From: Branchiostoma floridae
Lineage: Eukaryota > Chordata > Leptocardii > Amphioxiformes > Branchiostomatidae
Length of the DNA: 64,000 nucleotides
NCBI RefSeq assembly: GCF_000003815.2
Contig: NC_049988.1
Coordinates: 7,302,382 to 7,366,381, forward strand
Direction of reading: 5' to 3'
Under the pieces are notes generated by a model, which worked only from the letters and a program-made list of their open reading frames with translations, was not told the DNA's origin and made no database searches. The position numbers and the translations under genes are program-made. Positions 27,601 to 64,000 of the stretch are shown piece by piece. The stretch's first letter is position 1, and each line of letters begins with the position of its first letter.

Positions 27601-30600
27601 GTTGTTGACCAATGTTTGGATTGTATTTCTGTTCTTTTCGGGTCCGGGGGTAGCCGATGAGGCATGTCTAGATTAGGATTCTAGCTAGGAGGCTAACGAT
27701 TGTGCAGGATGTATAAAGTTCCTTTGCGTTCAGTTGTGAAATATTCTGAACATGGGAGTAAAATTAAGATTGACATTTTGGGAACATTTAAAATCATCCG
27801 AGGAGATCTAGATATTCATTCGTCCTTTGCTTCGGGTAGTGCTAAGGTGACGCAAACCTCTACGCCGCTTGTGTTAAGACCCTTCCGAAACGCCAGACAC
27901 ATGTCTTCCACATCTTCCTCTGACGTGTGAGTGTCCACAAACTTGCCGGTGAAGTGCATTTGTCCGCCGAGGATGAAGTAGGCCTTACGGTCGATGACGG
28001 TGACTTGAGAGGCAAACTTGTGGACGCAGGAAGGCTGGGGGACCACGGACCAGGCTGAAACAGTCACGTCATCCTTGACGAGGACTCTGCACATCTCGAC
28101 AGCGGCATATAAGCTTTGCCCACCTGCAATGTATATGGTATCAGCTTTGACCATTGTGGTTGCTTCTGCATGGGGTCGGGTCGTCGGCGACACTGCTTCC
28201 CAGGACTTCTTCGGTGGGAAGAAAGCTTCGACAGCTGAAACCGGTTCTTTCCTATGCTCGATTTGTGGGGTGGGTACAGAAGGCTGACCTAATCCGAAGG
28301 CAAAGCCGTTTTGTGGTGGCCGACGTTGGGTAACCTTTGGATCCACAGGGTGATGTGCGTAGCCACCGATTGCAAACAAAGCTCCCTGACAACTTGTCAG
28401 GGCTACTCCATCAGATGAACGGGGGAATGAGCGGATTCTGCTCCATCGGCCCTCAGAAACTTCGTAGCAGTAGGCATTGCTGCTGCGATTGTCCCCTTTG
28501 TCCACCACAATGAATATCGTTGTGTCCATTGCTGTCATTCTCGCTGTGTCATATTGGCAATTCGGCGGAAACGGTAGGCTCTTCCAAGTGTTTGTTGCTG
28601 GGTCGTAGAACTGGAAAGATGACTGAACCATCGCATAGAGAACGTTCCCCACCACAGCCACTGCTTGAATGGGCCCGGGAGCGCACATGGTCTTCTGCTT
28701 CCTCCAACCATTTGCAGTGAAGGCCCATGCTTTTCCCGAGGCCAAAGTCAAAGAAGTCTGCAATACAATAACATGTACTGTTTATTTATCACATTGTTTA
28801 GTTAAAAAAAGTTTTTCAGTCGAAGACCGTGTTAACTACTTTTACACATGATAATGGCTGTCACATTATTTCAGCAGTACATTCAGACCAGAATTATTCT
28901 CTTACTAGTGAATTAATGTGATAGAGGGGTGCTATCACATTTTTTTTCACTAGAAGACAATCTTTTTCCTCTTACTGGTGAATTAGGGTTATAGAGAAGG
29001 GCTATCACATTTTTTCACTAATAGAAATAATCTTTTCTCTTACTATTAAATCAATGTGATAGGGGGTGCTATCACAATTTTCACTAAAAGACACAATCTT
29101 TTAACTCTTACAAATGTTTTGAATTAGGGCACAGCTAGGTGGCTTTTCAACATCAATTTCTATTTTTCTATTTTCATCCGTACATGGATGATTGTGATAC
29201 ATTTATGACAATTAGCAAACGGCAGCAATTTTTATGCATTCTATTTCCTATATGCTTTCTCTCAGTAAGACTTCACATTACAAAAACATGAATTTCATTG
29301 TTTTTATCCCTGCAAAGAAATGTGCATACCTTCTTGCTCGCTGAAGTTCTGGGCCTTGATCGTGGCCAGTCAATGCCTTGTTTCATCTCGGATGGATAGC
29401 TGTGGTAGGCCATGGCTTCCAGGATCAGTTGCCTGCAACATTCAGTGGCACCCATATCGGTCTGAAGCAGTCCAGACAACGTGCTCTGGTCCAGCAGTGC
29501 AAATCTCACGTGGCTGAGGACTTCGGTTGTATGCGGAATTCTGGTCTGTTCATCGTGCATGAGCCAACGCACCACCGCCTCATACACCTGAAGTAGGTTA
29601 TAATGTTGTATGTATTACACATGCAAGTCATATTCAGTTGATTTACTGTTGTTTAGTCCCCTGGGATTACTTAACCATACAAATGTTTACGGCATTTGTA
29701 CATCAGACCTTCCCGTTTCTCTAACAAATTTCTGCTACGCATCTTCAATATTTGTATACAATGGTGCCGTTGGGGTGAGGCATTCCAATTGCGTTCGACA
29801 CCACTATGTACTATGTTGTATGCATTTTTGCGATAAATCTATAGAATACGTTAAAACTAGAAAGGCGACACTTAGCTAGCAAATCCATAATGTTAGCCTT
29901 TGGTCTAGCCTATCAAACAACTGCTTTGTTTGTTCTTACCAACTTCTTCAGCTCTGTCCTGCCACTTGCTACATAAAGTAATCGAACACTATAGAGTGCT
30001 TGCTAATTTACCAGTAACCATGGTGACAGCCGTCTGGTCCAAGCCATTTACCTTATTTGTCTTGATAAGTAGATACATGGTTCAAAAGCAATTTGTTTCC
30101 CTTCCGTGGGGGTTAACATAACAAAAATGAATGGAACGATTGTCGGCTTACCTGCAGTTCCGATGGCGACACAAGATCGTTTGTCTTTAACAGCTTCATC
30201 AACTGTTCCGCTGTAGTATACTGGAGAAACTCATCGGATGTGCTTAGCTCCAGAAAGTTCTCTGACAGCGCAGAGTTTACTTTTTCCTGCAATGTTATCA
30301 GTCCGTATGCATCAGCAAGCTACAAGAGAAAAATATAGATATTAAATATGACGAAATAAACAAAAGATACAACTCGAACTCGAAGCAAGTTGTCACACAA
30401 AGCTCCTGGAGATCTCTGGACAGCGAATCAATCTACCTACCTACTTGCTAACTTTATCTAGTTTTGAAAAAAAATGCATTTGATATGTCCAAGGTATGTA
30501 ACGTTACATGCATATGGACGATTCTGATACTTTAGATTTACGTACTAAACCCACCTTTTCTGCTTTGGCATAATTTGCCAGGTCCAGTGGTGCATCCCGC

Positions 30601-33600
30601 ATATTTTGCGAAACAAACTCGTAGCACAATTTCATGACAGACTGAATCTGTGAAAAAGAACATGATAATTACAGGTTTGTGATAGCAGGTTTCGTCGGTA
30701 TCCATGAACGCCGCCATGTTGGATTATGACGTCACGCAGACGCCATCTTGTTTTTACTCATCTAATGTCATATTTCTAGTGGGGGCACACATTTATATAG
30801 CGTAATGTTTAGTGTGCAGTGTACAGTGGGAAGAGATTTTACAAAACTGTCATATAAGATGATGCTTACTATTCACTCGAACATTTAAACATATGGTATT
30901 ACCAACTTGACGATATAATCAAATGGTGAACTGTGTTATTACGTATTTGCATACTATGTTTTCGAATTCTACAACCGAAACCGGACAGCCTACCTGTAAA
31001 TGATTGGCCACCAAGAGAACATCGTACACACTCTCTATAGACACCGTAAGTTCCCCGGAATACAGGAAGTTCAGTAGGGGACGGAACCCTTCTGCAGTGA
31101 TACTGGGGTCCTTCAGGTCCACACGATTGTCTTTGCTTTCCCTCATACCTAGTACGTCAAATAGGAGTTCATGTCACAACGAGGACTCCATTCAACATTC
31201 ACAACTTGCATTATGTGTAGGTCTATGTCAACTTTAAATATTGACAAATGCCATAAAGATCAAGCGTAAAGCCTCAGAAAGTCATTGAACCCGAAAAGGT
31301 ACGCTGAAAACGCCATAGGTAAATAGTTAACGATTTACCACATTTACACTGTATGTCCAATGGGGAAGATATGCATTTATCAATCTGTTATAGTTAAGTC
31401 TAGACTTTACGGTCATCAGAGTACAATCATATTATGTTGAATGGCTGGGCGATTCAACAGCCTCAGATTAGAACGAATTTTCAGACTACCTGAAGCAAAA
31501 AGGCGTCGGAAGAAGTCGCTACCGTAAGCCAGGACTGTAGAGTGTGCCATGAACTCTTCCTCCCCTACAACAACCGTCACGTCCAGGAGAAGTCCCTCCG
31601 CTCTCATGTCGTTCAGTACCGACAACATGTCGTTACCGAACGTTGGGTCACTCAGGGTACGGTGGACTTGTTCCATAGCGCCGCTAACCGCCATTGTGCT
31701 CTGTGCTTTCAAGTGCTACAGGTGGTGGCACTTTTCAGGGTATGTAATTACGTAAAAAGGTGTGTCATCTACACTGATGTCACGAAAGTTGAAAGGTTAC
31801 CGTAGTTTTGCAGTGGGAGGTATGGACGGATGGATGTTGGGTGGACAAAATAGTACTCAGGTATAAACCGGGCCACCGAAACCAGGCTGAACGAAACTGT
31901 TACCTTACCGAAACTGACGTTAAAACTGAAACTATGACGGCTCTTGAAAAATCGACAAATCTTCACTTGGGATTAAAAAAGACACAATCATATTGATTGA
32001 AGATATGTTACTTGGGATAATGTGGTTTTCCCAGTTTCACAACCAGTTATGTCTCTCACCTGCTGGCGTTCCGATGCCTATCAGACATCCTCTTCAGTGC
32101 ATCCTCCTAACTCCCGGTCCCCAACGGCACTACCTTATGGGGCCCTGCTGTCCCAGGCCCTACCTACGGGTATTATGATTGTCGCCACAAACAAGCTGTC
32201 AACCAATCAGAGAACAGGCCTTCCTTGGGCTTGTTGTTGTCGCAAGCTGTCTCGCAAAGGCCGCTGGGAAGCTATCAGCCAATCATGTTACGTATTACCA
32301 TGACTTTGTTTGCTCACCATGCCAACGCCCGATCCCCAACGGCTGACTGCCCATATAAGGGCAAGCTCATTAATATTCATAAGCAAGGCACCCCTAATAA
32401 CCGAATACTGTGGCTGATTTGTCAGGGTTGATATCATAGGCTTTGCCGTGATTGTCAACCCTGAGTGTGAGGGTGCTTCTAACTGGAGTGCTGCTTATCG
32501 CCGCTAGATGTAGCCGAATATGGGTGGCGCTTTTTTTTTTAATATTTGCGGCGAGAACACAATCCCAAACGTGATCAAATGTCACCCCTCGTCACCGTTC
32601 ATCACTGGAGTTGACTCTTTTATCCCAGTGACGGTTTGATCCACCGGATACGTGTGTTGTCATATTAACTTGGCCCCTTACTAAGTATCAACTCTTCGAG
32701 CATATTGTGTTTCAATGAACACCCATTTGTTTGAGCGAATATGTCTTATCAATGTCATCATCAATATCACAGAACCATCGCATACAACACGCCCCTTACT
32801 TTTTTCATCATACAAACAAACAAGCAACAAACAGACAAACAGATATCTGAACTAACACAATATAATTTGATCTATTGTGTGTTCAATCGTACTGGTTACA
32901 CAAATAAAAAAAACAAATATTTGAACTAACACAGGAGCTATAATAAATCCTTTAAAAAGGATTTATTATGCCCTAAATTACCTTAATTACCTTAAGTTAC
33001 CTCTCAACAAGGGCTTCTATCGTCACAAATCTACTATATTCTATTTATCTACTGGTTTGGCTGATATACTACACAACTAAAAAGCCAATCATTCACCTAT
33101 GAAATTTCCTATTAAAACAAAAAGATGTTTATGCTATTGAATATCTATTATGTGTAATTTACATGCTTCGCCATCATGACTACTATATCTTTCAAACTGT
33201 CAGCCAGTCTTTGTCAACAACTTTTGAAAATCGATTAGAAACGCGTAACACAATGTTTTAATGACTGTAATCCTTAAGTTAATATGATTCTACAACAAGG
33301 TAGTAGGTCAAACTATTCGTTCAAATTTGGTAATTATCAAATACGGACAAAGTTGTCTTTTTTCTATCAAAACGTGCTGAGCCTGTCAGATGTGAATTGT
33401 TCGCTGTTTGTGGCTTGTCCAACAAGGGTATAGGATTTCAGTTTCAAATACTAGACTTATATAAGGACTTGTTCATGATTTCATGGTGTCACTGGTATGT
33501 CTATATTTGGTCGGCCCTTCTCATCTATAAAAAGTCCTCATGTCTTCTCGTTCAATGACAAAGTTGCACACACGACGTCACTGGTCGATTGGACATTCCT

Positions 33601-36600
33601 CAGAAACGCCCGACACATGTCTTCCACATCTTCTTCTGACGTGTGAGTGTCCACAAACTTGCCGGTGAAGTGCATCTGTCCGCCGAGGATGAAGTAGGCT
33701 TTTCGGTCGATGACGGCGACTTCGGAGGCAAACTTTTGAGTAGGCAGGGGCTGATGGATCAACGACCACGGCGAGACAGTAACACCAAATACATCGTCGA
33801 CGGAGACTTTGCACATCTCTACGGATGTGTTAGAACATGTCCTACCGTTGACAACCGTGTCACCACCTGCTACGTAGATGATGTCACCTTGCACCATGGC
33901 GGTTGCTTGAAAATGAGGTTGTATGGTGGGAGACACTGCTTCCCACGAATTCTTCACTGGGAAGAAGGTTTGTACTCTAGATGTGCGTACATCTGTATCC
34001 TTCCCCTCAGCGGTTGTACTATAAACTTTACCACCGATTGCAAGCACAGCTCCCTGACAGCTTGCTAAAGCTACTCCACTCTTGTACTGGGGAAGGGGAG
34101 GGATTTTTGACCAACGGCCGACTGAGATGTCGTAGCACCAGGCCTTACTCTTGCGCACGCCCTCCTTACCACATACCAGAAACAATCTTGCACCGATTGC
34201 AACCATCCTGGGCGCCCCGTGATGATAATCAGGTGGAAAAATTAAATTGCTCAATTCATCGGTTGTCGGATCATAGGACATGAAGTACTCCTTGTATATC
34301 ATGTACATCACATTCCCAACAACGGCAACCGCGTAGACGGTCCGCCCTCCGAGTGAAATGGCGGTTTTTGTCCACCCCGTTTTTGTGGTGAATTTCCGTG
34401 CTTCGAGGCTTAACGCCAACAACACCTGTTGAACGAATGAAAGCATATAATGAATTTTCTCATTGAGAGACCCTTGGATGACATGTAGGTATTTTTACTG
34501 GGATCGTTTCACGCAATGTTCTTCTTACATCCAGTGTTTCTACGTGAAGAGTTAAGCACATGCATAAATGCCTTTCATTGTCTCCTTTCACATTATGAAA
34601 GATACTAGTATTTACTTAAAAGTGACCTACTTGTTCATCCATTTGCGCTCTGGACTTTGACCGTGGCCAGCCGTCTTTGGTCTCAGTAGTGGGAAGACTA
34701 TGGTAAGCCATGGCTTCCAAGATGAGGTTCCTGCATTCTTCTATTGTTCCAAGTTCGGTCCTCAACAGGCCATACAGTAAGCCTATATCCAACAATGCGA
34801 GGCGCACGTGGCTCAGGACAGCCGCAGCGTGTTCCATGTGGCTTGTGTCGTGTGTCAGCCATCTTAATGCCGCTTCATACACCTGGCAAAATAAAGACTG
34901 ACGATTGTACCCCGTAGCATGACTCAGAAAGATGGTGCATCCTAGTCTCTACCAGACTGACTACGCTGGCTATTATCGGAGAAAATTTGGAGTTTTGCTA
35001 CCTGACGAGCTCGCGAAGCAATATAAGGATTATCTATCCAATTGGCACCTATCAGATATCGATTTAGTGGACTTCAAAGAACGTAAATGACTTGAGGTCA
35101 CATGAGTGGCGCCGAATGGCAGCTCGCTCCAGACCCTTGCGATTTAGCCCCGCCTTTTGTAAGCTTCTCGCAATTCAGCCCCTGGCTACCAAGATAGTAG
35201 TCGGCCCACCCAATACAATACCAATACAATACAGTAACGAGATACCACAGGCTCCCCGGAGAGGAAACATGAACCTAAGGGTGGACTGAGTCCCCTGGCC
35301 AATTTCCCGATTTTTTTGCCGAATTCAACGATTTCCGTACCCCCATAGAAAGCTAGGCCTTTCCTACACCTAAAAACCCATTAGAAATGTGACTGAGGCA
35401 TAACCTTACCTGTTGCTCGGATGGTGCCGCAAGAGTCTCAAGCTGTAAAAGCCTGATCATTTCGTCCTTTGTAGCATACTCTAGGAAGTCATGAGAGCTG
35501 GTCACTTCCATAAAGTCTTCTGCAATCACTGTGTCTAGAGACTCCTGTAAGGTTTTCAGGTTATACAAGTCTGCAACCTGTAAAATATAAAAGGGAATGA
35601 CGTGTGTCATTTTTGCATAGTATGGCCTGTTATGAAAAGAGAAAATACGTTCATCATGCAGTGGTATGGCGAGCAAAAAAGTATTTACGTAACAACTTAC
35701 CTGGGTTCCCCTGGAATACTTTGCCATATCAAATTGTGATTCACGTAAAGTCTGTGTGATGAAGTCACCGCAAAGTCGAAGAGCCGATTGAACCTGCCAT
35801 CCATTGAAAAGAGAATGCAACATTTGCATAATTTATATCTAAATATGTTCCTCTCTGTCTGATGCTTACATGTTTGAAAACAGGTTTCATGTTTTAAATC
35901 AATATCAATCAATCCGAAACTGCTATTATTCAATTATGAAAATATAATTGGCGATGAAAATCTATGTAATATATTTATTTTTACTGCTGTCAACGTTAAA
36001 TCTTTGTTTATTTATGATAAGCTCAAACTTTGGCTGCCTGCAAGCCGGTTTTCATTGAGGCCAATAGGGAAGAGGTTAGGGTCAAACAAAATCGGAAATA
36101 GTTGCTTATGCTATGCTGTTATGATGACACAAAACTTGGTTATTGATCATGCAAATGATCAATGAAGTACATATTTGCATAAACATTATATATCTTACCA
36201 TTTTCATTCAGGATACTGGTGGAACATGAACATAGGAGAGAAAACTCTACCTAAAACTTTAAAGAGGATGAACTAAACTGAACTGACGTCCCGTTTTTCA
36301 ATCGCACATTCTCAAGTTTACCTGTAGATGGTTGGCTACCGCCAGAACCTCGTACACGTTCTCTAATGACATCACCAGCTGTCCGGTATACAGGAACTCC
36401 AGTAGGAGACGGAAAGCCGCCGCCGTGACACTTGGGTCTTTCAGATCGACACGTTTCTCCTGGCTTTCCTTCATACCTATAGACGTAACACACTTGACTG
36501 AGTCAGGCACTCTTCGGTGCATGAAAATGTGTACCAAATGCACTCAAGACTCCAGAGAAAATTGTGACAGGGAAAGTGGGTGCTATGTGGGTGGGCTTAT

Positions 36601-39600
36601 TTCAGTTAGAACTGGTAACACTATGTTATAACGTGTCGTTAGCTACAACCAACCAATAGCATGCATGAAAATGACCTTGAAGATGAACAAAAACACATAT
36701 AGTGACTATTCAGTGGTTTACATTACAGGGTACCGGATATTAAACCAAAAGAGGCTATTACAAGTTTTCCATCAAACGAAGCCGGTCGAATCTGGCCGAA
36801 AGCAAACTCTTACACACTCTTGTGTGGCCTTGGGTGTAAGGAACTTTGGAACTGTTCAGCCATATGTTGGTCTGACAATGTCAGCACTTACCCGATGAAA
36901 ACAAACCCCGGAAGTAGTCGCTTCCATAGGCCAGGACTGTAGAGTGCGCCATGAACTCTTCCTCCCCTACAACAACCGTCACGTCCAGGAGAACTCCCTC
37001 CGCTCTCATGTCGTTCAGTACCGACAACATGTCGTTACCGAACGTTGGCTCACTCAGGGTACGGTGGACATGTTCCATTGCACCGCTGGTCGCCATTGTG
37101 CTCTGCGCCTTGCATGTGATACAGGAAGAGTCACTTTTCAGGGTATGTAATGAGGTGTGTCACCTACACTGATGTCATGCAAGTTTAAAGGTTACAGTAG
37201 TCAGTTTGCAGTTGGGGGTATGAAGGGTTGGATGTACATTAGGAAACGGCTCAAGAAGGAATAGATCAGAACATCGAAACTATTGGTACAAATGATCGAG
37301 ACAGAAACTAAACCCCACATGGACATCGAAACTAATATTGATCATGAAACTAAGAACTTCAAGATAATCTATGAGAAGCGTCCCCTATATTAAGGCTATA
37401 TACACGTATACGGAATGCACAATGCACGTGTGGTGCACAAAAGTTAAAAAAATCAGAGCAAAATGATACTGTTCAGATTCTTTCTTCTGCAAATGATCAA
37501 TAACACAACAATAACAAAACAGTGCACCAGTAGCGTAACATGTTCTGCAACTGTTTTATTGTCAACCACAAATGGCACTCATTTCAATAGCACATTATCA
37601 TTTCTAACATCATATTAGATTACAAAAAGGATTGGTAGAATTCCATCGCACTCAAAGATCATGTCAGTAAAATTGCATGCTTTTTCTTAGCCTAGTTTTC
37701 AGTTTGAATTTATCAAGATTGACAATGACCCTGAAAATTTACATTGTAATTATTTTTCATGTGGTTCATTAACATGCATGGCTGCACAAAACACACGAAT
37801 ACCAACAACTTTTGGTGCTATTTCGAAGAGTTAACTACTCCGTTGTCATCGTAAAGACTTGGCCATTCTTTGAATTTTCCTCGACATATCCTATACGTTG
37901 GGATCCGATCTAGTCGGGATGTAGGGCCCAAGTTCAACAGTAGGAAAATCACTATCGCCAACGGTGAGTAGGAATGATTGGAAACGATTGTCATCATTCT
38001 GCGAAGGTGGCGCAAATTACAGATTCCTGGTCCAGATTATGTCGCCAAAACGCCTGACACATGTCTTCCACATCTTCCTCTAACGTGTGAGTGTCCACAA
38101 ACTTGCCGGTGAAGTGCATCTGTCCGCCGAGGATGAAGTAGACCTTGCGGTCGATGACGGCGACTTTGGAGGCAAACTTGTGAACGCAGGGATGCTGGGG
38201 GACCACGGACCATGGCGATGATTCCTTCATAGTCAGTCGTAGACCAGTCCTGCACATCTCAACAACGGTACTGCCTGTTATCTCCCCGTTTATGAAGGTT
38301 TCACCGCCGGCTATGTAGATGATGTCACCTTGCACCATGGCGGTCGCTCCTGAATGGGGATCTCTTGTTGGTGACACTGCTTCCCAGGAGTCATTCGGCG
38401 GGAAGAACTTTTGTACCGCTGACGTTGGTACAGCCGTTGGCTTGAGGTTGTCCACTGCGCCTATCGCCCTTGGTGCAAGTGTTTGTTTATCGCCTACAAT
38501 CCCATGGATGTTACCACCGATTGCGTACACAGCACCCTGACAGCTTGTGAGGGTCACTCCGTCGGTTGATCTGGGGAATGATGGGATTCTCATCCACCGG
38601 CCTTTAGGTATGTCATAGCACTGAGCTCTACTGCTCTGGAAATCGCCCTCACACGTCGAGTACACAAGAAATAGCCTCGTGTCGATTGCTGCCATTATAG
38701 GCGACTTACTGTTAGCTAATCCAGAAGGTGCCTTTAGATGGTTCCAAGTGTTTGTTGTCGGAACATAGAACTGAAATGAGTTCTTGAATACGGCATACAG
38801 AACATTTCCGACCACAGCTGCCGCACAAATGGATCCATCTGGGCGACTCCGAGAAACTTGCATCGTCCATGATTTGTTCCGGATTCTGTATTTTCTACTA
38901 GAGGTAATAGCCATCAAAACCTGTGGAAGACAAATATTTTAAGCTAGATACTGACTCTGGATACCGCAAAAACTTGACACCTCGATCTTTGCTTGACATT
39001 TAATTCAAACACATTAATATTGTTGGAGCGTTTTTTGTATCAGGATTAGGGCTGGGTACCGGTACAGTGTACCGGTACAAAACCGATTTTTCTTATTGGA
39101 CCGGTCCAGAAAAACCGGACCTGGACCTGATCCTTTGGACCTGAACCGTACCTGGACCTGAATTTTCTGTACCGGTACCCACCCCTAATCAGGATCGAAA
39201 TCAATTCGATTGTTCTTGCTATGTGGTAACGTAATAGGCCTTTTCACCAGCGCAGCTCGGCACAGAACCCTATATACTTGATTACTTTGTTTTTATACAT
39301 TTCAGGCATGTAAAAACACATACCTTTTTGCCCAGCTTTGCCCTTGGTCTTGACCGTGGCCAGTCAATGCTTCCTTTAATCTCGGGTGAAAGACTGTGGT
39401 AGGCCATGGCTTCCAGGATCAGTTGCCTGCAACTTTCTACAACACCCATATCGGTCTGTAGCAGTCCATACAGAGTGCTCTGGTCCAGCAGTGCGAATCT
39501 CACGTGGCTGAGGACTTCGGCCGCATGCGGCATTCTGGTGTGTTCGTCGTACATGAGCCAGCGCACCACCGCCTCATACACCTGAAAAGGGATTCACTTC

Positions 39601-52738: not shown

Positions 52739-53310
52739 GTGAGGTATGGTCGAGGTTTATAGAAAAGTCTGGGCTGTCTGTCATGCCAGGCTACCCATTC
52801 TAGTCACCATGGCTATGCATGGAGGTTTGGCAACAAGTAGAATTTGGTCCATGACAACAATAGTCCATCATGGAGAAACTGTTTTCTACTCTGTAACTTG
52901 TACTTATCTTTTTGTCCATGACTGTAGATTTTTTACTGTCTGTGAACATCACAATGGTTCAACTGAACACGAAGAAATCAGTGTTTTAACCCTAGTCCTG
53001 CGGCACGCTACAATTGTGTTGTTGCACTAGCATGTTCTGTATGCGACGCGACACTATTGTAGTTTCGGGGGTATGTTTAGGATACGCACGTAGCGCTAGC
53101 GTGTGTTACTTCCGGGTTGCTGACATCGTGTCAGGTTTGACCTCTCAGGGGTTAAGGGTCAACGAACTATTACGCAACCGGAAGTACGTCATCCCATAAG
53201 CCATTGCGCGGCTAATTTATTCAATATGGCCGCCGGCGTCGGCTGCTACATGTAAATATCTTTTGTTTGCTTTGTTTGGGTGTTTTGCGCGGCAAATTTC
53301 ACTATCTATC

Positions 53311-55734
53311 ATGCCGAGGCCGCGATATTCGGTACATGAGGTTCATGACGTGCTCTTTACGGAGGATTCGGACCCTGATTTCCCCGATTCTGACGGAGAA
53401 TTGGAGGGAAATAGCGACAGTGACTCGGACTCGGACGACAACGTGCAGCCAGTTCGGCATTCTGCACGAGGGACAAGAGGGGCACAAGGAACCGCGAGCG
53501 CTGACGTAGATCACGTAGGGGATGACACAGATCGTGATCGTGGCCGTGGCCGTGTGAGAGGACGTGGAGTACGAGGCAGGGGCAGGGGCCGGGGCGCTCA
53601 GCGAGGCCGGGGCGCTCAGCGAGGCCGGCGAGGGGGGCGTGGTGGTCGGAGTCGCGGGCGGACAACACGTGGCGGCACGCGCCCCGCAGCAAGTGGGCGT
53701 GATGACGCGGATCCCTCAACAAGTGGGGATGATGGCGCTGGTCCCTCAACAAGTGGCAATGCTGCTCAGAGCCGTTCCAACCCGCGTCAAGCCACTCTAG
53801 ATCCAAGGCTTGAAGATGAAAACTGGCAGCCAGTGGATGGTGACACCGTACCCCAGACTCCGCATGCGTTCACTGCAGAAAGGGGATTTACTGAGGAAGT
53901 AAGTTGATATATTTTTGTTCACTGACAGTTAGTGTTACAGTACTTTGGTTTTTGGTCCAAATAAGTTGGTCTTGGTGATTTTTGCAGCTTGTGTATAAAA
54001 CAATATTAGGTCAAATTTTAGCTTTCTATTTTTGAGATTTACTTTCTTTTCTTTTTGTTACTTTATGAAAGCATGTAGACAATTATGAAAACACTTTATT
54101 TGTAGAACTGATAGGATGCTGCATTTTTCCTGTAGGTTACATTGCCAGATAATCCAACTCCTTTGGATTTCCTTGACCTGTTGGTGCCTCCGTCAGTATA
54201 CAAAACGTGCACAGAGCAGACCAACAAGTATGCCCGGGACTTCTTCGAAGATCATCCAGTGGACAGTCAAAAGCCCAGGGCACGCCCGCGTGACTGGCCA
54301 GAGGAGGGCATCACGGAGACAGACATCAAGGTCTTCTTGGCTCTAACAATTGCCATGGGCCTCATCCACCACCAGGACATCGCAGACTACTGGAGTACGG
54401 ATGAGGTCCTGGAGACGCCGTTCTTCCCCACCATTATAACCCGGGATAAATTCCAGCTAATCTACAAATTCTTCCACCTCTGCGACAATGACACCTATGT
54501 CCCCCGTGGTGACCCTAACTACAACCCCTTTCACAAGCTTGGTGACGTGTATCCTACTATCCTTGAGAGATTCACCGCCGTTTGGTCTCCAGGAAAGGAG
54601 ATATGTATCGACGAGGGGATGGTGCCATTCAGGGGCAACGTACACTTCCGGACATACAATCCTGACAAGCCGGACAAGTACGGCCTGAAAGCGTATGAGT
54701 TGTGCGACTCCAATAATGGCTACTGCTGCCGCTTCGAGATGTATGGAGGGAAGGGGAAAGAGCCTTCAGCGAAGGGGTTGACACACGACATCGTCACCCG
54801 GCTGATGACCCCATACCTGGATAAGGGACATACACTCTATTGTGATAATTATTACTCTTCCCCACAGCTGTTCTTGGATCTGAGCGATGCAGGTACTAAT
54901 GCTTGCGGAACTGTGAGAAACCGCAAGGGTCTCCCAGATGAGTTCAAGAATGCCAAGCTAACTGCACCCAAAGAGAGGTTCTGCATGTCCAACGGTCCTA
55001 TCCTTGCCTTAAAGTACAAGGACAGACGTGACGTCAAAATGCTATCAACTGCACACAGTGCAAAGATCATTGGCACTGGCAAGCGGAACCGAGATAGGGA
55101 GGAGATTACTAAACCAGAGTGCGTGCACTACTATAACAGGTTCATGGGAGCAGTCGATTCCTCAGATCAAATGGTCTCATATCTAAGCTTCCGCCGACGC
55201 ACCCTGAAATGGTGGAAGAAGGCATTCTTCCATATCTTCAGCCTTGCCATTCTCAACGCATACCTAATGTATAAGTATCATTTCCAACAAGCCCAAGCAT
55301 CAAGACCAAGAGAGGAAGAAGAAGATCCAAGCAAGGTCCCAAAACCAATGCTGCACCGGGAATTCCGCAAGCAGCTGGTCAAGACGCTGATCAGCACATC
55401 AGGCTATGCCCATGATACCAGGGGAAGGAGGGTCAGCGCCAGTGCCCACCTGTTATGTCGCCTGTCAGAACGCCACTTCCTGGAGCGCATTCCACCAGTC
55501 AACGCAGGGGGCAGGCACCCAGCAAGGTACTGTGTTGTCTGCAGCTCTGCAGCAGCGACAGGCGCAGCTGCAGGTACCGGTACATCCGGGAAGAAGCGCT
55601 CCAGCTATCAGTGTAAGCAGTGTAGGAAAACCTTGTGCATTGAGCCATGTATGGAGTTGTTCCACACGCGAAGCGACTACATCAAGGCGTATCAGCGGAG
55701 ACAAGCAGGAGATGACACAGAGGATGGAGACTAG
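53311..55734 (+). CDS. piggyBac transposase, two exons, intact
   Basis: Exon 1 is 53,311-53,898 and exon 2 is 54,136-55,734, joined in phase 0 (GAA|GTAAGT, TTCCTGTAG|GTT), giving 728 aa. Residues 20-55 are acidic with Asp-Ser runs. Residues 85-135 are a long Arg-Gly stretch, unusual in length and possibly nucleic-acid binding. The transposase core starts at about 200. The three catalytic aspartates appear intact: D355 (CIDEGMVPFRG), D433 (YCDNYYSS) and D537 (MGAVDSSDQM). The C-terminus (about 660-715) is a Cys-rich zinc-binding domain (ARYCVVCSS, YQCKQCRKTLC, CMELFH). There is no frameshift or premature stop. It is encoded inside TTAA-bounded inverted ends, so it belongs to the mobile element rather than being a clear host-domesticated PGBD gene. 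Confidence 0.93.
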
Positions 55735-55768
55735 GCCACATGTAACTTTTATTTTAGTTTTAATTGAT

Positions 55769-57190
55769 GCCAGGACTCCTCAGGAACTTTGTACCATTGT
55801 TACAAGGTATTTACTAGTGCTGTAGAACTTAGAGTCAAGGTTGTGGCAGAATATACTTTTTATTGCTTTTTTATGACTATATAATCAATAGAATATGTGT
55901 AGACAATTAAACTTATGATTCATAGCAAAGTAAAGACTGTTAGCTTTAATTTGATGTACAACAAGCCTTTATTGCACCTACAACACAATATCAAAATGAA
56001 GTTAATTCAACACAGAAGAAGTAGTGATTCCACAGAAAAGTTAGTTCAGTACCAAGGACAATCTCCTGTCATTTACTCACCTGTTGCAATACCTGTGTAT
56101 TTTCTGACCTAAGTTGTATTGTTGTCATGTCCCCAGGACTCCTCAGGAACTTTGTATTGTTGTTACAATGTATCTCACTGGTGCTGTAGGACTTAGAGTG
56201 AAGGTTGTGGCAGAATATACTTTTTATTGCTTTTTTATGACTATATAATCAATAGAGTAGGTGTAGACAACTAAAAATATGATTCCTAGCAAAGTAGAGA
56301 CTCTAAGCTTTAATTTGATATACAGCAAACCTATATTGCACCTACCATACAGTATCAAAATGAAGTTAATTCAACACAGAAGAAGTAGTGATTCCACAGA
56401 AAAGTTAGTTCAGTACCAAGGACAATCTCCTGTCATTTACTCACCTGTTGCAATACCTGTGTATTTTCTGACCTAAGTTGTATTGTTGTCATGTCCCCAG
56501 GACTCCTCAGGAACTTTGTATTGTTGTTACAATGTATCTCACTGGTGCTGTAGGACTTAGAGTGAAGGTTGTGGCAGAATATACTTTTTATTGCTTTTTT
56601 ATGACTATATAATCAATAGAGTAGGTGTAGACAACTAAAAATATGATTCCTAGCAAAGTAGAGACTCTAAGCTTTAATTTGATATACAGCAAACCTATAT
56701 TGCACCTACCATACAGTATCAAAATGAAGTTAATTCAACACAGAAGAAGTAGTGATTCCACAGAAAAGTTAGTTCAGTACCAAGGACAATCTCCTGTCAT
56801 TTACTCACCTGTTGCAATACCTGTGTATTTTCTGACCTAAGTTGTATTGTTGTCATGTCCCCAGGACTCCTCAGGAACTTTGTACTGTTGTTACAATGTA
56901 TTTCACTGGTGCTGTAGGACTTAGAGTGAAAGATTGTGGCAGAGTATCCTTTTTATTGCTTTTTTATGACTATATAATCAATAGAATAGTTGTAGACAAC
57001 TTAAAATATGATTCCTAGCAAAGTAGAGACTCTAAGCTTTTATTTGATATACAGCAAACCTATATTGCACCTACCATACAGTATCAAAATGAAGTTAATT
57101 CAACACAGAAGAAGTAGTGATTCCACAGAAAAGTTAGTTCAGTACCAAGGACAATCTCCTGTCATTTACTCACCTGTAGCAATACCTGTG
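55769..57190. repeat. 364-bp tandem repeat, ~3.9 copies, inside the piggyBac element
   Basis: Units start with CCAGGACTCCTCAGGAACTT at about 55,771, 56,135, 56,499 and 56,863, with spacings of 364, 364 and 364-365 bp. The two middle units are almost identical; the first and last are more diverged. A 61-65 codon frame recurs in each unit but is a by-product. The repeat starts about 35 bp after the transposase stop, so it is probably in its 3' untranslated or subterminal region. Confidence 0.93.
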
Positions 57191-57603
57191 TGATTTCTTT
57201 ACTCATATAAGGAAGGATAATGTTGTCAGAGATCTTGAAATAGTTTGTAGTCAAGAAATTCACATGATAAATGTAGGATATGTGAGTAGAATACAAAGGT
57301 TTCATGAAATAAGTGTGTTTTATTGTTTTATTGCCGCTATTAACCATTATAACAGAAAGAATTGTAGATAACAGTAGCATTTCTAGAAAGTACACATTGT
57401 TAGCTTTACAATGATATATACCTTTATGGGGTTACTGTAAAGTAAAGTGACTAAAAATGAGCAATATCAAACTAGTACCCTTTGCTTCGATGGGGTCTGG
57501 GAACCCCAGCAGTGGGGGCGAGTTTTGGTATAGAAAGCCAGCAGGACAAGGGTTAAGATTAATGGTACCATATTATCTAATCACATGTATGCACAACACA
57601 GCC

Positions 57604-60057
57604 ATGATGGAGTCTGTCAGCAGTACCACAGGGACAGAACTGACCAGGGTTCAGCACATCCTGGGTCTCATGCAGAAAAACCTGGAGTGCCCCATATGGT
57701 ATGTACATGATGTCTACGGGGTCACCTTTATACATTACTCTTAGGATGAAAGATCCTTTATGAATCACAAGAATTAATCCTTTATTCCTGAGGCTGTCAA
57801 TCAATCGTTCGCATGCATCATATGTTGATGCGTGGCGGCTACAGACAGTTCAGACAGTTCTTGCCACATTGTTCTACTCTGGGCGTGGACAGTCCAGTCA
57901 GATCTGGGTACCCCAGCTCCTGGAGTGTGTTGAAGACCTGATCTTCCCATCTCCCTCTTGGGCGGCCTCTAGGGCGTTTCCATGATGGACCAGGATCAGA
58001 TGTTGTCAGGCTGGGTACCTGTTCAGAATATTCAGGTTCACTTCAGGCCCAGTTCAAGTCCAGAGGATCAGGTACAGGTCCGGACCTGAACCTGGACCTG
58101 ATTGTCTGTGAAAACCTGTGAATGAACGGTACTCAAAACAATGGTCCATTTCCACATATACATAGACATGTGTATAATTTCAATGTTTGACATTATTTCT
58201 GTTCCATGTAGCTTAGACCTGTTGAAGAACCCTGTCTCCACCCGCTGTGACCACCAGTTCTGTAGGTAAGACATCATAACCGTAGGACCGCGTGGCGCAA
58301 TCGTCAGCACGTTTGACTCAGGCCCAGAAGGTCCTGAGTTCGAACCCCGCCATGTTGCCGATCTTGTGCCCTTGGGAAAGGCACTTTACTCAACTTTCCT
58401 CACTTCACTCAAGTGAAAAATGAGTATATAGGTTAAGGTCTTCAGCAACTTGAAGTTGGTAGCCTCAAAACAAAGAATAAGAGAAGGCTTCATCTTTTTC
58501 TTGTCCTATATTGTCTGCTAATTGGGCATGGACTGATATAGTCTGGCAAAGGAAAAAACATTACTGCAATTTGTTGGGTTCTTTTCAAGCCAAGAGTTTG
58601 TAAGCAAAATGTATTCATGTGACAGTTTTATTTCTTTTTTTTTAAATTCAAATCTGGTTATAGGGATTTTGTATCCTTTGTAGACTGGGCCTCTTTGAAA
58701 AACAATGTGGCTGCCCAGGTGTTTGAAAATTTTAATAAAAAAATCAATCACGTTCCTAAACTTACCTTATACTTTGGATATCGGTTAGCAAGCCATACAA
58801 TGTATTGTATGTTTTGCATGTATGTTTTTTACGTTGTATATCAATCTCTGTTTGTATCATCTTTTGTTCAGATTCTGTATCCTGAAGGCCCTTACAGGAA
58901 AGCAGAGTGTCTCCTGTCCTCTATGTAAGGTGGAGGTGACCAAAAGGTGCTCCATCGAAAACTTCATATGATTTAGTTGTGTTTTTTTGTCTCCAGTGTT
59001 TATAAGTCAGAAACTTCCTCTTTAGGCCAAACGTTACTTAAATTAGTATCACTAGAATATTAAAACATTGTGTCATAGTGAAGCTACATTGTCCTATGAG
59101 TTCTTAAATTAAAAAACAAAACAAAACACTATGCTTTATCTTAAGGATTACGCTTTGCGTTTGACTAAAGAGGGACAGTGTTAAGTGTCAACTTGCATGG
59201 TGAAGCTTAACTAGTACCATACGTAACCCACTACTAAAATACATGACTGTAATAACCCACTACTAAAATACATGAATGTAACTGCAGGAGTCTGCAAGAC
59301 AACACTCAGCTACAACAGATCATCACAGCTGTACAGTCAGTAACAGAAGCTGTCTACAAGGACACTGATCAACAAAAAGGTATGGTGTGAAATGTCCTTG
59401 TGTTTGTTTGTTTTTCATAAATGGTGAAACATCTCTAGGCGTAACACACCAGTTTTGAACAGTAAGTACAAGCCGTAAGTAAGTTACAGGTTGTAGGTTT
59501 GATTCTGTTATATCAGGGTGTACCGTAATCTTTTTTTGTTTACAACAGTTGCTGAAAATATCTAAATATTGTTTGTTGCATTAGCTTGCATACATGTACC
59601 TACTTGAGTTTTATCTTGCAGCCCCACCTGTAGGATCATCACAGAACTACAGTAAGTCGCAGGATCAAAAGGAGCAAGGGGAGAAGAGGAGACACATTTC
59701 CACAGACTCAGTGAGTGCCATTTTTATTTATGGAAAGTTGCAATATCAGCAAAACAAAACTGAAGCTCATGTATTGAATATGGCAACGCTAAGGGTGTCC
59801 AAAAATTACATCTAGTTACATCTAGCACGATTGGGCAAATATAGGAGCATTACCTGATCATCAGTTTCACTTACTCTGGGTGATCCGGCAAACAGACTTG
59901 TACAACTTTGCAGCACATTGTCTAGTTGCAAGCTGCATAGTGAAATGTATGTTTAAGTTTTTAAGAAGTCCTATCATCAATATACTTTAAAAGTGAGTAC
60001 TAAGTTGTTTTGGTTTTACAGCCTGCCAACTTTCCAGATCATTATGCAGTCATTTAG
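57604..60057 (+). CDS. BRCA1: BRCA1-type N-terminal RING protein, apparently ending early
   Basis: Coding exons: 57,604-57,698; 58,212-58,265; 58,872-58,946; 59,288-59,379; 59,622-59,710; 60,022-60,057, all in phase, giving 146 aa. Residues 16-68 match the BRCA1 RING (MQKNLECPIC, NPVSTRCDHQFC, RFCILKAL, SCPLC) with all eight zinc ligands: C29, C32, C44, H46, C49, C52, C65, C68. The flanking helices (TRVQHILGLMQK; RSLQDNTQLQQIITAVQSV) correspond to those that pair with BARD1 in BRCA1. BRCA1 is the RING half of a ubiquitin ligase in DNA repair. The last exon adds 11 residues and a TAG, with AATAAA 16 bases later. That would give a RING-only product without BRCT domains. Alternatively exon 5 splices to exons beyond the window. 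The acceptor before 57,604 is CACAACACAG at 57,601. Confidence 0.82.
57785..57985 (-). pseudogene. Degenerate LINE-like 3' fragment
   Basis: Minus-strand frames give pieces such as RPPKREMGRSG and TMWQELSELSVAATHQ. These resemble the C-terminal tail found after reverse transcriptase in LINE elements (GRPxxRW, WxELSELSAA). Frames are shifted and no catalytic part is present. It lies in the intron after the first coding BRCA1-type exon. Confidence 0.4.
58003..58150. mobile_element. Diverged relative of the hAT-type miniature element
   Basis: AGGCTGGGTACC at 58,009 is followed by CAGGTCCGGACCTGAACCTGGACCTGATTGTCTGTG and ACTCAAAACAATGGTCCATT-like sequence. The interior matches the element at 39,047-39,187, and the last part matches 62,630-62,655. 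The right end is not preserved. Confidence 0.55.
58285..58480 (+). repeat. tRNA-derived SINE
   Basis: The head GGACCGCGTGGCGCAATCGT has an A-box-like TGGCGCAATCG, and 58,329-58,345 (GGTCCTGAGTTCGAACC) is a good B box, as in the internal promoter of tRNA genes. No complete cloverleaf or acceptor stem closes. The body TGCCCTTGGGAAAGGCACTTTACTCAACTTTCC follows the pattern of conserved SINE bodies in marine animals. It lies between BRCA1-type coding exons 2 and 3. Confidence 0.75.
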
Positions 60058-62229: not shown

Positions 62230-63438
62230 TCACATGACTCCCTTGTTGCTCCCCAAAGTGTCACCATTCTCGGCAGGACAGAACCTGTTAGCCTTGTGAG
62301 GTAAGACCGGGCTGGCCGCCTCGTAGTGGATGGTGGGGCACAGGTGGCCTGGGTCACCCTGCGGGGGCTCGCTCTCCACACTTTTCCTGATGAATTATGA
62401 TTGAAAAAATAATTATTGTCCCATGGAATTCCATAGAACATAAACTTTCAAAACTTATAAACATAAGTCATTGAAAGGTAAAAGATAAGAGGGTAAAGCA
62501 TTAAACATACATGCATTGTTTTTTTTACTATTAAATGTCAAATTATTTTAATGGTTAGTCTAGGGGTGGGTACCGGTACAGAAAAATTCAGTTCCGGTTC
62601 AGGTCCAGAAGATCAGGTCCAGGTTTGGACGATACTCAAAACAATAGTCCATTCTCTACAAAAAAAGTATGCTTTGTGGCATATTTGACCACTGGCGTTC
62701 TAAAATCCTACAGGATAACTATATATATATGATTGACTGTAAAACTTTGTAGAAATTGCTATAAGCTCTACTCTGCTTCGCTCTTCCTATTTTCTACAAC
62801 CAGAAAGCCCCAAAACGTGTGAATTCATGATCATATAATCTGTTTTTTTCTAAAAGGTCCAACATCCGGTCCACGGAATTTTTTCAGGCCCGGTCCAATA
62901 AGAAAAAACCCTATCACTGACACTTCAGAATTCAAGTTCCAATGTTCTAAATGTATAGACTAGTGCGCAATATCTTGCACTTCAAAGTACTTTAGCAAGC
63001 CACTCTTTTGCGTTTCTTAAAGCCATACATATTTGTGTTGCTGCATACAAATACTTTTCTGATTTGTAATGAGAAGGGAGGGTTTTTCTATCATCTGAAC
63101 AGACTACTTTGTCTTGATTGTGTTATGCAGCAAATCTATCGGATGTATTTCAAAGCTTTTTTTAGCAATGCCTCAGGGGCAAAGCCTCCTGTATGATATT
63201 GTTGAAGCTACTTTCTCCATTCTCTAGTCTTATGCAATATTGGAAGCTCTGTAAGTAATTCAATATATTCGTATGTTAATGCATGTCCTACCTGTTCTCC
63301 ATGCGTTCCATGCTGATCTTGGCACGTGGTACCACGGGGCTGGCAACCTCGTAGTGGATGGTCGGGATGGACAGGTTTGGAGCAGGGGTCTGGGGGGCCT
63401 GCTGGACAGGGCCACTGTCACGTTTCTTACCTTTACCC
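62230..63438 (-). CDS. Last two exons of an unrecognised gene with a repeated TIHYE motif (partial)
   Basis: The minus-strand exons are 63,438-63,292 and 62,386-62,230 (stop TGA at 62,232-62,230). Donor AACAG|GTAGGA and acceptor TTCATCAG|GAAAAG join in phase 2. The upstream exon also begins in phase 2, so further exons should lie above 63,438, some probably outside the window. The visible 100 residues are basic and Pro-rich. Each exon carries one copy of a motif: IPTIHYEVASPVVPRAK in the first, CPTIHYEAASPVLPHKA in the second. Equal phases and the shared motif suggest exon duplication. I do not recognise the family. No membrane segment or enzyme motif is seen. It could be nested in a longer BRCA1-type gene or simply be the next gene. 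Confidence 0.6.
62561..62916. mobile_element. Longer relative of the hAT-type miniature element
   Basis: The left end TAGGGGTGGGTACCGGTACA is as in the element at 39,047, followed by GGTCCAGAAGATCAGGTCCAGG. The right part TTTTCAGGCCCGGTCCAATAAGAAAAAACCCTA is the complement of the 39-kb element's left interior. About 200 bp of unrelated sequence separate the two. No matching 8-bp duplication is found, so the right border is tentative. It lies in the intron of the TIHYE gene. Confidence 0.6.
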
Positions 63439-64000
63439 CTGGAGAAAGAACACATTTATTATTAGACTGAACCATTTTAAACTACATACATGTATGTCCA
63501 ACAGTCAAAAAGCTTCGGCTATATTTGTCCTTTTTCTGAAGGCTGCAAATCAAAGACTTGACCATATTTTCCATCTGAAAATTTCCACCCATTTTTGGAC
63601 GGACCTGAGGATCTCAAGTAATCTGCTCTCCAACAATATCTCTTTAGTGTCACTGATAAAAGGCAGTGGAATCTGCCTGAAACATCTGACTTTCCAAAAT
63701 CATATACAGTTGCTTGAGTAATTGCTATTTACCTGGATGTCTAACCTCTAGCTTACTTCATTACCAGACCACTTCAAAGTTGCATGAGATGTTCTTACAA
63801 ACACAAGTAGGCAAATGTTATGTTTGCCGGTTCTAAAAAGACGCCTTGAAGTTGAATGATTGTCTTGAAATAGTGAAAATTGATACAGTACCCCCCTCTC
63901 CAACATCTTTCCTTTTCAAACTGCAGGTATGGTTGATAAATGGGAAATACTGTGCTGCCATGGGATGTAAGGTCATACTCTGAGTGCTGTCCACCATCAG
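63439..64000. other. Window end, presumed intron of the TIHYE gene
   Basis: It contains the second copy of the 60.75-kb segment (63,645-63,750). No exon could be assigned. Confidence 0.4.

Follow-up and report, generated by a model that had tools for sequence, protein, structure and literature searches.

A probably complete piggyBac-superfamily transposon in the first intron of a BRCA1-type gene of Branchiostoma floridae

A piggyBac-like element lying directly in front of the first coding exon of a BRCA1-type gene raises the question of whether it is a transposon that could still move, a relic, or a gene retained by its host, and of what it does to the gene that harbours it. Such an element is found in Branchiostoma floridae within a stretch of 64,000 nucleotides (contig NC_049988.1, positions 7,302,382 to 7,366,381; hereafter the window), where an earlier note, made from the letters alone, had described it as apparently intact and perhaps young. 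From comparisons of its sequence with relatives and known systems, we consider it quite probable that the element is a DNA transposon of the piggyBac superfamily, autonomous in type and complete in structure, which cut-and-paste transposition brought to a TTAA in intron 1 of the BRCA1-type gene. An intact transposon at this locus would serve as a natural test of how a sense-oriented piggyBac behaves inside intron 1 of a repair gene. A literature search, conducted mostly at title level, returned no paper title dealing with this insertion, and the accessible part of PMC5822658 holds nothing on lancelets.

The ends of the element are defined by the following features.

52986..52989, no strand: left TTAA target-site copy, read from the sequence
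52990..53001, + strand: left 12-bp terminal inverted repeat, CCCTAGTCCTGC, from end comparison and pattern counts
57541..57552, - strand: right terminal inverted repeat, CCCTTGTCCTGC, from end comparison and pattern counts
57553..57556, no strand: right TTAA target-site copy, read from the sequence

The element thus measures 4,563 bp (52,990-57,552) between two TTAA copies, exactly where the earlier note had placed it, and CCCTAGTCCTGC and CCCTTGTCCTGC are identical at 11 of 12 positions as inverted repeats. Two hallmarks of the piggyBac superfamily are present, a TTAA target-site duplication and terminal inverted repeats beginning CCC, and the element belongs to this known class. With at most one mismatch allowed, the two element ends are the sole matches to the terminal-repeat pattern in the 64-kb window (0.38 expected); because 7 of 100 shuffled windows contain at least two matches, the pattern by itself carries little weight at this scale. 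Across the whole assembly TTAACCCTWGTCCTGCKG has 141 exact occurrences (70 + 71), and a control pattern read backwards has none (0 + 0). The element gene reads on the + strand, the direction of the BRCA1-type gene. Rfam and tRNA scans of the 64-kb window returned no matches.

Between these ends lies a predicted two-exon transposase gene.

53311..53898, + strand: transposase exon 1, residues 1-196, acidic and then Arg/Gly-rich
53899..54135, + strand: predicted intron, 237 bp, phase 0, GT-AG, from frame joining and the place of the junction in relatives
54136..55734, + strand: transposase exon 2, residues 197-728 and stop codon, with DDE_Tnp_1_7, D355/D433/D537 and C662-H706
55906..55911, + strand: ATTAAA, the sole AATAAA or ATTAAA on this strand between 52,990 and 57,601

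The 728-residue uninterrupted transposase reported earlier is open throughout when spliced at the predicted phase-0 junction: none of the 728 codons is a stop, no frameshift interrupts them and every catalytic residue is kept. It is not a single frame, the unspliced exon-1 frame reaching a stop at 53,907. The junction falls at the same place in three relatives. Pfam PF13843 (DDE_Tnp_1_7) is matched over its whole profile (positions 1-349, E 5.2e-78, 263.2 bits, cut-off 22.4), and a PDB sequence search with the protein returns piggyBat (9c0f, E 2e-58) and piggyBac (6x67, E 4.2e-34). All three catalytic Asp named in the earlier note are in place, D355, D433 and D537 sharing alignment columns with piggyBac D268, D346 and D447 (numbering from PMC7351741, in part). 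The spacing of the Cys-rich tail is seen at C662-H706; the zf-Tnp_2 profile scores 18.5 bits, below its cut-off of 24. Likeness to piggyBac of Trichoplusia ni (6x67) and to piggyBat (9c0f) extends over the TTAA target, the CCC ends, a DDD transposase of the same Pfam family, a putative C-terminal Cys-rich domain and a left-end palindrome at the place of the piggyBac Cys-rich-domain site (PMC7351741, in part). Unlike these elements, the window element is 4.6 kb long and has a transposase intron, 364-bp tandem arrays and a palindromic site repeated at an offset of 43 bp. The ratio of observed to expected CpG is 1.27 in the element 5′ region and 1.02 in exon 1; it falls to 0.60 in exon 2, to 0.51 in the flanking host intron and to 0.0 in the tandem array. 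A CpG-rich promoter is possible. The element's own 5′ region would drive a predicted, spliced transposase mRNA.

Whether the element is young in the sense first proposed depends on its relatives in the same assembly (513,431,437 bases, 431 contigs). A PF13843 profile search found 25 places (43/43 candidates scored) and none in 14 control genomes (0/14), and an exon-2 protein search gave 61 matches (64/64 candidates scored). After the window itself, the nearest exon-2 relatives are copies C5 (75% identical, full length), C12 (64%), C18 (68%, truncated) and C13 (60%, in two pieces), followed by decayed fragments, many on C6 and C165. The highest exon-2 identities are otherwise short, such as a 29-residue match on C369 at 86%. 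Left-end DNA gave 41 matches including the window, the best others being 77% over 323 bp, 81% over 240 bp and 88% over 117 bp (40 candidates); right-end DNA gave 43, the best other being 88% over 357 bp (40/48 candidates scored). The genome search that the earlier note had proposed as a check, run with exon-2 protein, left end and right end, thus yielded no near-identical copy of the window element in its own assembly, and with the nearest transposase at 75% amino acid identity and the nearest ends at 77-88% the element does not appear young in that sense. Viral and prokaryote collections contained 5 and 6 pattern-matched stretches, respectively, and tblastn confirmed 0 of them.

The family was nonetheless recently mobile, judging from some of its copies. 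Copies C12 and C18 are 99.84% identical over 2,538 bp, beginning exactly at the TTAA, with different flanks; no right end is recognisable in C18. Transposase-less copies, described below, point the same way. Two further transposase-bearing elements have both ends and TTAA: C5 (4,924 bp, transposase 75% identical to that of the window element at the amino acid level) and C12 (4,195 bp, 64%). Among the first 100 of the 141 exact ends, 17 pairs face each other within 8 kb, at distances of 4,924 (C5), 4,563 (window) and 4,195 bp (C12), about 1,040 bp in eight cases and 577-2,172 bp in six. An insertion that became fixed long ago, is no longer mobile and has escaped decay by chance would fit with the missing near-identical copy. 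We regard this as improbable given the 728 codons free of stops, frameshifts and lost catalytic residues, and given two tandem units that are identical over 364 bp, although recent internal duplication or an assembly effect could also account for the latter. With its open frame, catalytic residues and both ends intact in a recently mobile family, the window element could still move.

Selection on the transposase bears on a further alternative, that the element is a host-domesticated PGBD-like gene whose terminal repeats are leftovers. It is a single copy at its level of divergence; between its exon 2 and that of C5, dN is low (0.156) against a saturated dS of 2.3, with 58/162 fourfold sites agreeing; and it has an intron, as does domesticated PGBD5 (PMC3902484, in part), an intron-containing piggyBac-derived gene known from lancelet according to the same source. 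These ratios do not decide the matter, since active transposon lineages would be expected to show purifying selection just as a domesticated gene would, and an equal dN/dS arises from selection between transposable-element lineages. Estimates for other pairs are sparse (NG86 dS undefined for 4/6 pairs, YN00 without an estimate for 5/6), and the C12-C18 values are disturbed by the foreign last codons of C18. Both ends and the TTAA copies are intact, relatives with TTAA and ends have the same intron place, and many non-coding copies carry the same ends, so that domestication seems very improbable to us. Compared by description, PGBD5 has several introns and is a single, domesticated gene, and the window element keeps both ends and TTAA. 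The earlier note had named the lack of other copies together with host-gene-like conservation as evidence that would tell against a mobile element; half of this was seen, in that no near-identical copy turned up, but relatives with TTAA and repeats exist and some have moved recently. An apparent 84% identity between the transposase introns of the window element and C5, obtained with a global aligner, was dropped: shuffled sequence gives a mean of 79% and a maximum of 86%. BLAST aligns the two introns at 79% over 135 and 71 bp. The same aligner bias affects the element-end identity matrices, in which only values of at least 0.90 were relied on and low values were left unused.

Two sites stand out in the left end.

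52999..53021, + strand: left-end site 1, element bp 10-32, palindrome core ACAATTGT centred at bp 24.5
53042..53064, + strand: left-end site 2, element bp 53-75, site 1 repeated at offset 43 with 15/23 positions identical

In the window element, C5 and C12 alike, the best recurrence of the 23 bases from bp 10 lies at exactly offset 43, with 15/23, 21/23 and 22/23 identities that were reached by 25, 0 and 0 of 1000 shuffles, respectively. Transposase-less copies L015 and L021 repeat the site at 14/23 and 16/23 (128 and 3 shuffles per 1000). All three elements have a palindrome about bp 24.5 at site 1: ACAATTGT in the window element, CACATATGTG in C5 and CCCGGTTATACAACCGGG in C12. Site 2, centred at about bp 67.5, forms a perfect palindrome in C12, a fair one in C5 and a poor one in the window element. 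The 43-bp-spaced repeat is weak in the window element, and its second site is hardly palindromic. In piggyBac the left-end palindrome bound by a dimer of the Cys-rich domain spans bp 17-33, its centre near bp 25 (PMC7351741, in part); the palindrome of the window element occupies that place. In the three elements the exact core motifs recur only within the left end, whereas in piggyBac the internal repeat is present in the right end as well (PMC7351741, in part). The sites differ between lineages, with identity at 8/23 and 6/23 positions between the window element and C12, while the tips agree at 11-12/12. We infer that Cys-rich domains and left-end sites changed together between lineages. By analogy with piggyBac, the main body of the transposase would bind the 12-bp ends, its Cys-rich dimer would bind the left-end palindromes, and the enzyme would excise the element and matching transposase-less copies through hairpins at TTAA.

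Pairing left and right matches by hand brought up 18 more places that carry one of each. They comprise the C5 element, a pair of C5-like places (C6:25.70M and C4:6.56M, right end 67-68%) and 15 whose right ends are closer to that of the window element (79-91% per piece). Among loci L015-L028 (n=14) a left TTAACC end is present in 10/14 and both ends in 6/14. Five of these loci, transposase-less copies of 1,782-1,803 bp, compare in 10 pairs at 89.7-99.2%, with 4/10 pairs at 97% or above. Searching 58 loci with the whole transposase (tblastn) gave no match in paired-end copies except a weak exon-1-like stretch in the C5-like L049. At the left-end sites, L015 and L021 agree with the window element at 20-23/23 positions, with C5 at 14-17/23 and with C12 at 7-8/23. 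No second transposase-bearing element with the end type of the window element was found in the assembly, and as the sole such element found it appears to be the best candidate driver of its transposase-less class. The C5 transposase might also act on these copies because their tips are identical, and transposase copies now decayed or absent may have driven them in the past.

The 3′ part of the element is a tandem array.

55770..57196, + strand: tandem array of a 364-bp unit in 3.9 copies, with no difference between units 2 and 3 along their 364 bp

That these repeats are a later minisatellite was rejected: a period of 364 is also present in the C5 and C12 elements, and repeats are found in non-autonomous copies. 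TRF, applied to 24 loci and the window element, detects a period above 150 in 8 loci and the element; the 364-bp period is not generally conserved, since the non-autonomous loci give 357-358. The last 1,346 bp of C5 and C12 are common at 92.3%, while their exon 2 sequences agree at 30/120 shared fourfold sites, the random level. Recent exchange of the tail between these lineages would be the simplest explanation for so similar a tail beside randomised fourfold sites. The tail of the window element is of a different type from that of C5 and C12. These observations can be joined, tentatively and at somewhat less than even chances, in one reading: the window element would be the last complete transposase source of one end-specificity class in a modular piggyBac system, in which pairs of palindromic sites are lineage-specific (same places, changed together), the 12-bp tips stay constant, and the 3′ tail, comprising the 364-bp array and the right end, is swapped between lineages. 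If so, losing the window locus would strand its non-autonomous class. Three lineages in one assembly with constant tips and different doubled palindromes would allow a test of co-change between Cys-rich domain and site, and of tail exchange.

Downstream of the element lie exons of the BRCA1-type gene.

57602..57698, + strand: BRCA1-type exon 2 with start codon, by PDB sequence match
58212..58265, + strand: BRCA1-type exon 3 (RING), by PDB sequence match
58872..58946, + strand: BRCA1-type exon 4 (RING), by PDB sequence match
59288..59379, + strand: BRCA1-type exon 5, by PDB sequence match

The best PDB match of the encoded RING protein is the BRCA1 RING (1jm7, E 4.3e-27; next non-BRCA1 entry 6.2e-15); the N-terminal RING expected of a BRCA1-type protein is present, and the assignment rests on this part. 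The acceptor at 57,601/57,602 lies 49 nt past the element, TTAA included, which agrees with the distance first noted, and the branch-site-like CTAAT is outside the element and intact, as claimed, 21 nt from the acceptor. Of the proposed placement between a noncoding and the first coding exon, the exon-2 acceptor holds; for the noncoding exon the GTAAGA motif at the donor (52,292) makes a plausible case. Overall, the description is supported: a piggyBac-superfamily element, apparently intact, lies in the first intron of the BRCA1-type gene and in its orientation. Intron 1 would measure 5,309 nt with the element and 742 nt without it. These distances and the retained CTAAT suggest that the insertion does little damage to host splicing, and the likeliest outcome would be near-neutral, the element being removed with intron 1.

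Some host transcripts could nevertheless be diverted to the 54,136 acceptor and the ATTAAA. A precedent is CSB-PGBD3: intron 5 of human CSB holds a sense piggyBac whose acceptor and poly(A) signal can trap host exons (PMC2268245, in part, also the source of the 'exon trap' idea). At the BRCA1-type locus the noncoding exon would be joined to the 54,136 acceptor and the transcript ended at the element poly(A) signal, giving a transposase fragment driven by the BRCA1 promoter and less BRCA1-type mRNA. The two cases share a piggyBac-type element in sense within an intron of a DNA-repair gene, the catalytic part being flanked by an acceptor and a poly(A) signal (PMC2268245, in part); here the acceptor is just upstream of the catalytic domain, and ATTAAA lies 172 nt past the stop codon. 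In contrast to CSB-PGBD3, the element occupies a first intron, upstream of the start codon. We think such a trap unlikely: the upstream ATG in the host exon is out of frame and meets a stop after 78 codons, giving no in-frame fusion. In the exon-2 frame no Met occurs before residue 270, and the signal is ATTAAA rather than AATAAA. Transposase exon 1 spliced to 57,602 would meet a stop after residue 197. No second haplotype of the insertion locus was found in the assembly. The opposite strand carries an MMADHC-type gene upstream (PF10229, E 1.1e-9).

The transposase intron of the piggyBac-superfamily element in the window (53899-54135) is 79% identical, over 135 + 71 bp, to the corresponding intron of the C5 relative, in contrast to the fourfold sites of exon 2, where the two elements agree at just 58 of 162. 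The C5 element (locus L009) and the C12 element (locus L010), which are deeply diverged from each other, show 92.3% identity across the final 1,346 bp, and the two look as though they have exchanged tails.

Tandem arrays with a 364-bp period occur in all three autonomous-size elements:

Window 55770-57196, array of the window element
L009 2945-4147, array of the C5 element
L010 3702-4406, array of the C12 element

Despite the equal period, the window and C5 units have only short similar stretches in common. The period in non-autonomous copies is 357-358. At least eight end pairs among the first 100 listed ends (contigs C1, C2, C4, C5, C6 and C8) are spaced 1,040-1,043 bp apart, and these pairs probably represent a non-autonomous group of recent spread.

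The assembly profile search also placed matches to the transposase profile PF13843 inside very long open frames:

C9:5047206, frame of 3,952 aa
C15:1667504, frame of 3,163 aa
C217:191751, frame of 11,635 aa

Elsewhere in the window, a dispersed repeat within intron 2 of the BRCA1-type gene (57797-58009) is present in at least 39 other places in the assembly, a count that comes from scoring 40 out of 1,389 candidates. An ASPVMPRA-like motif recurs in minus-strand open frames that lie downstream of the RING exons, at 62280-63440 and in locus L059. Three mutually similar kelch-type open frames lie on the minus strand at 27816-28781, 33538-34494 and 37994-38938, of which the scan took in 27816-28781 only.
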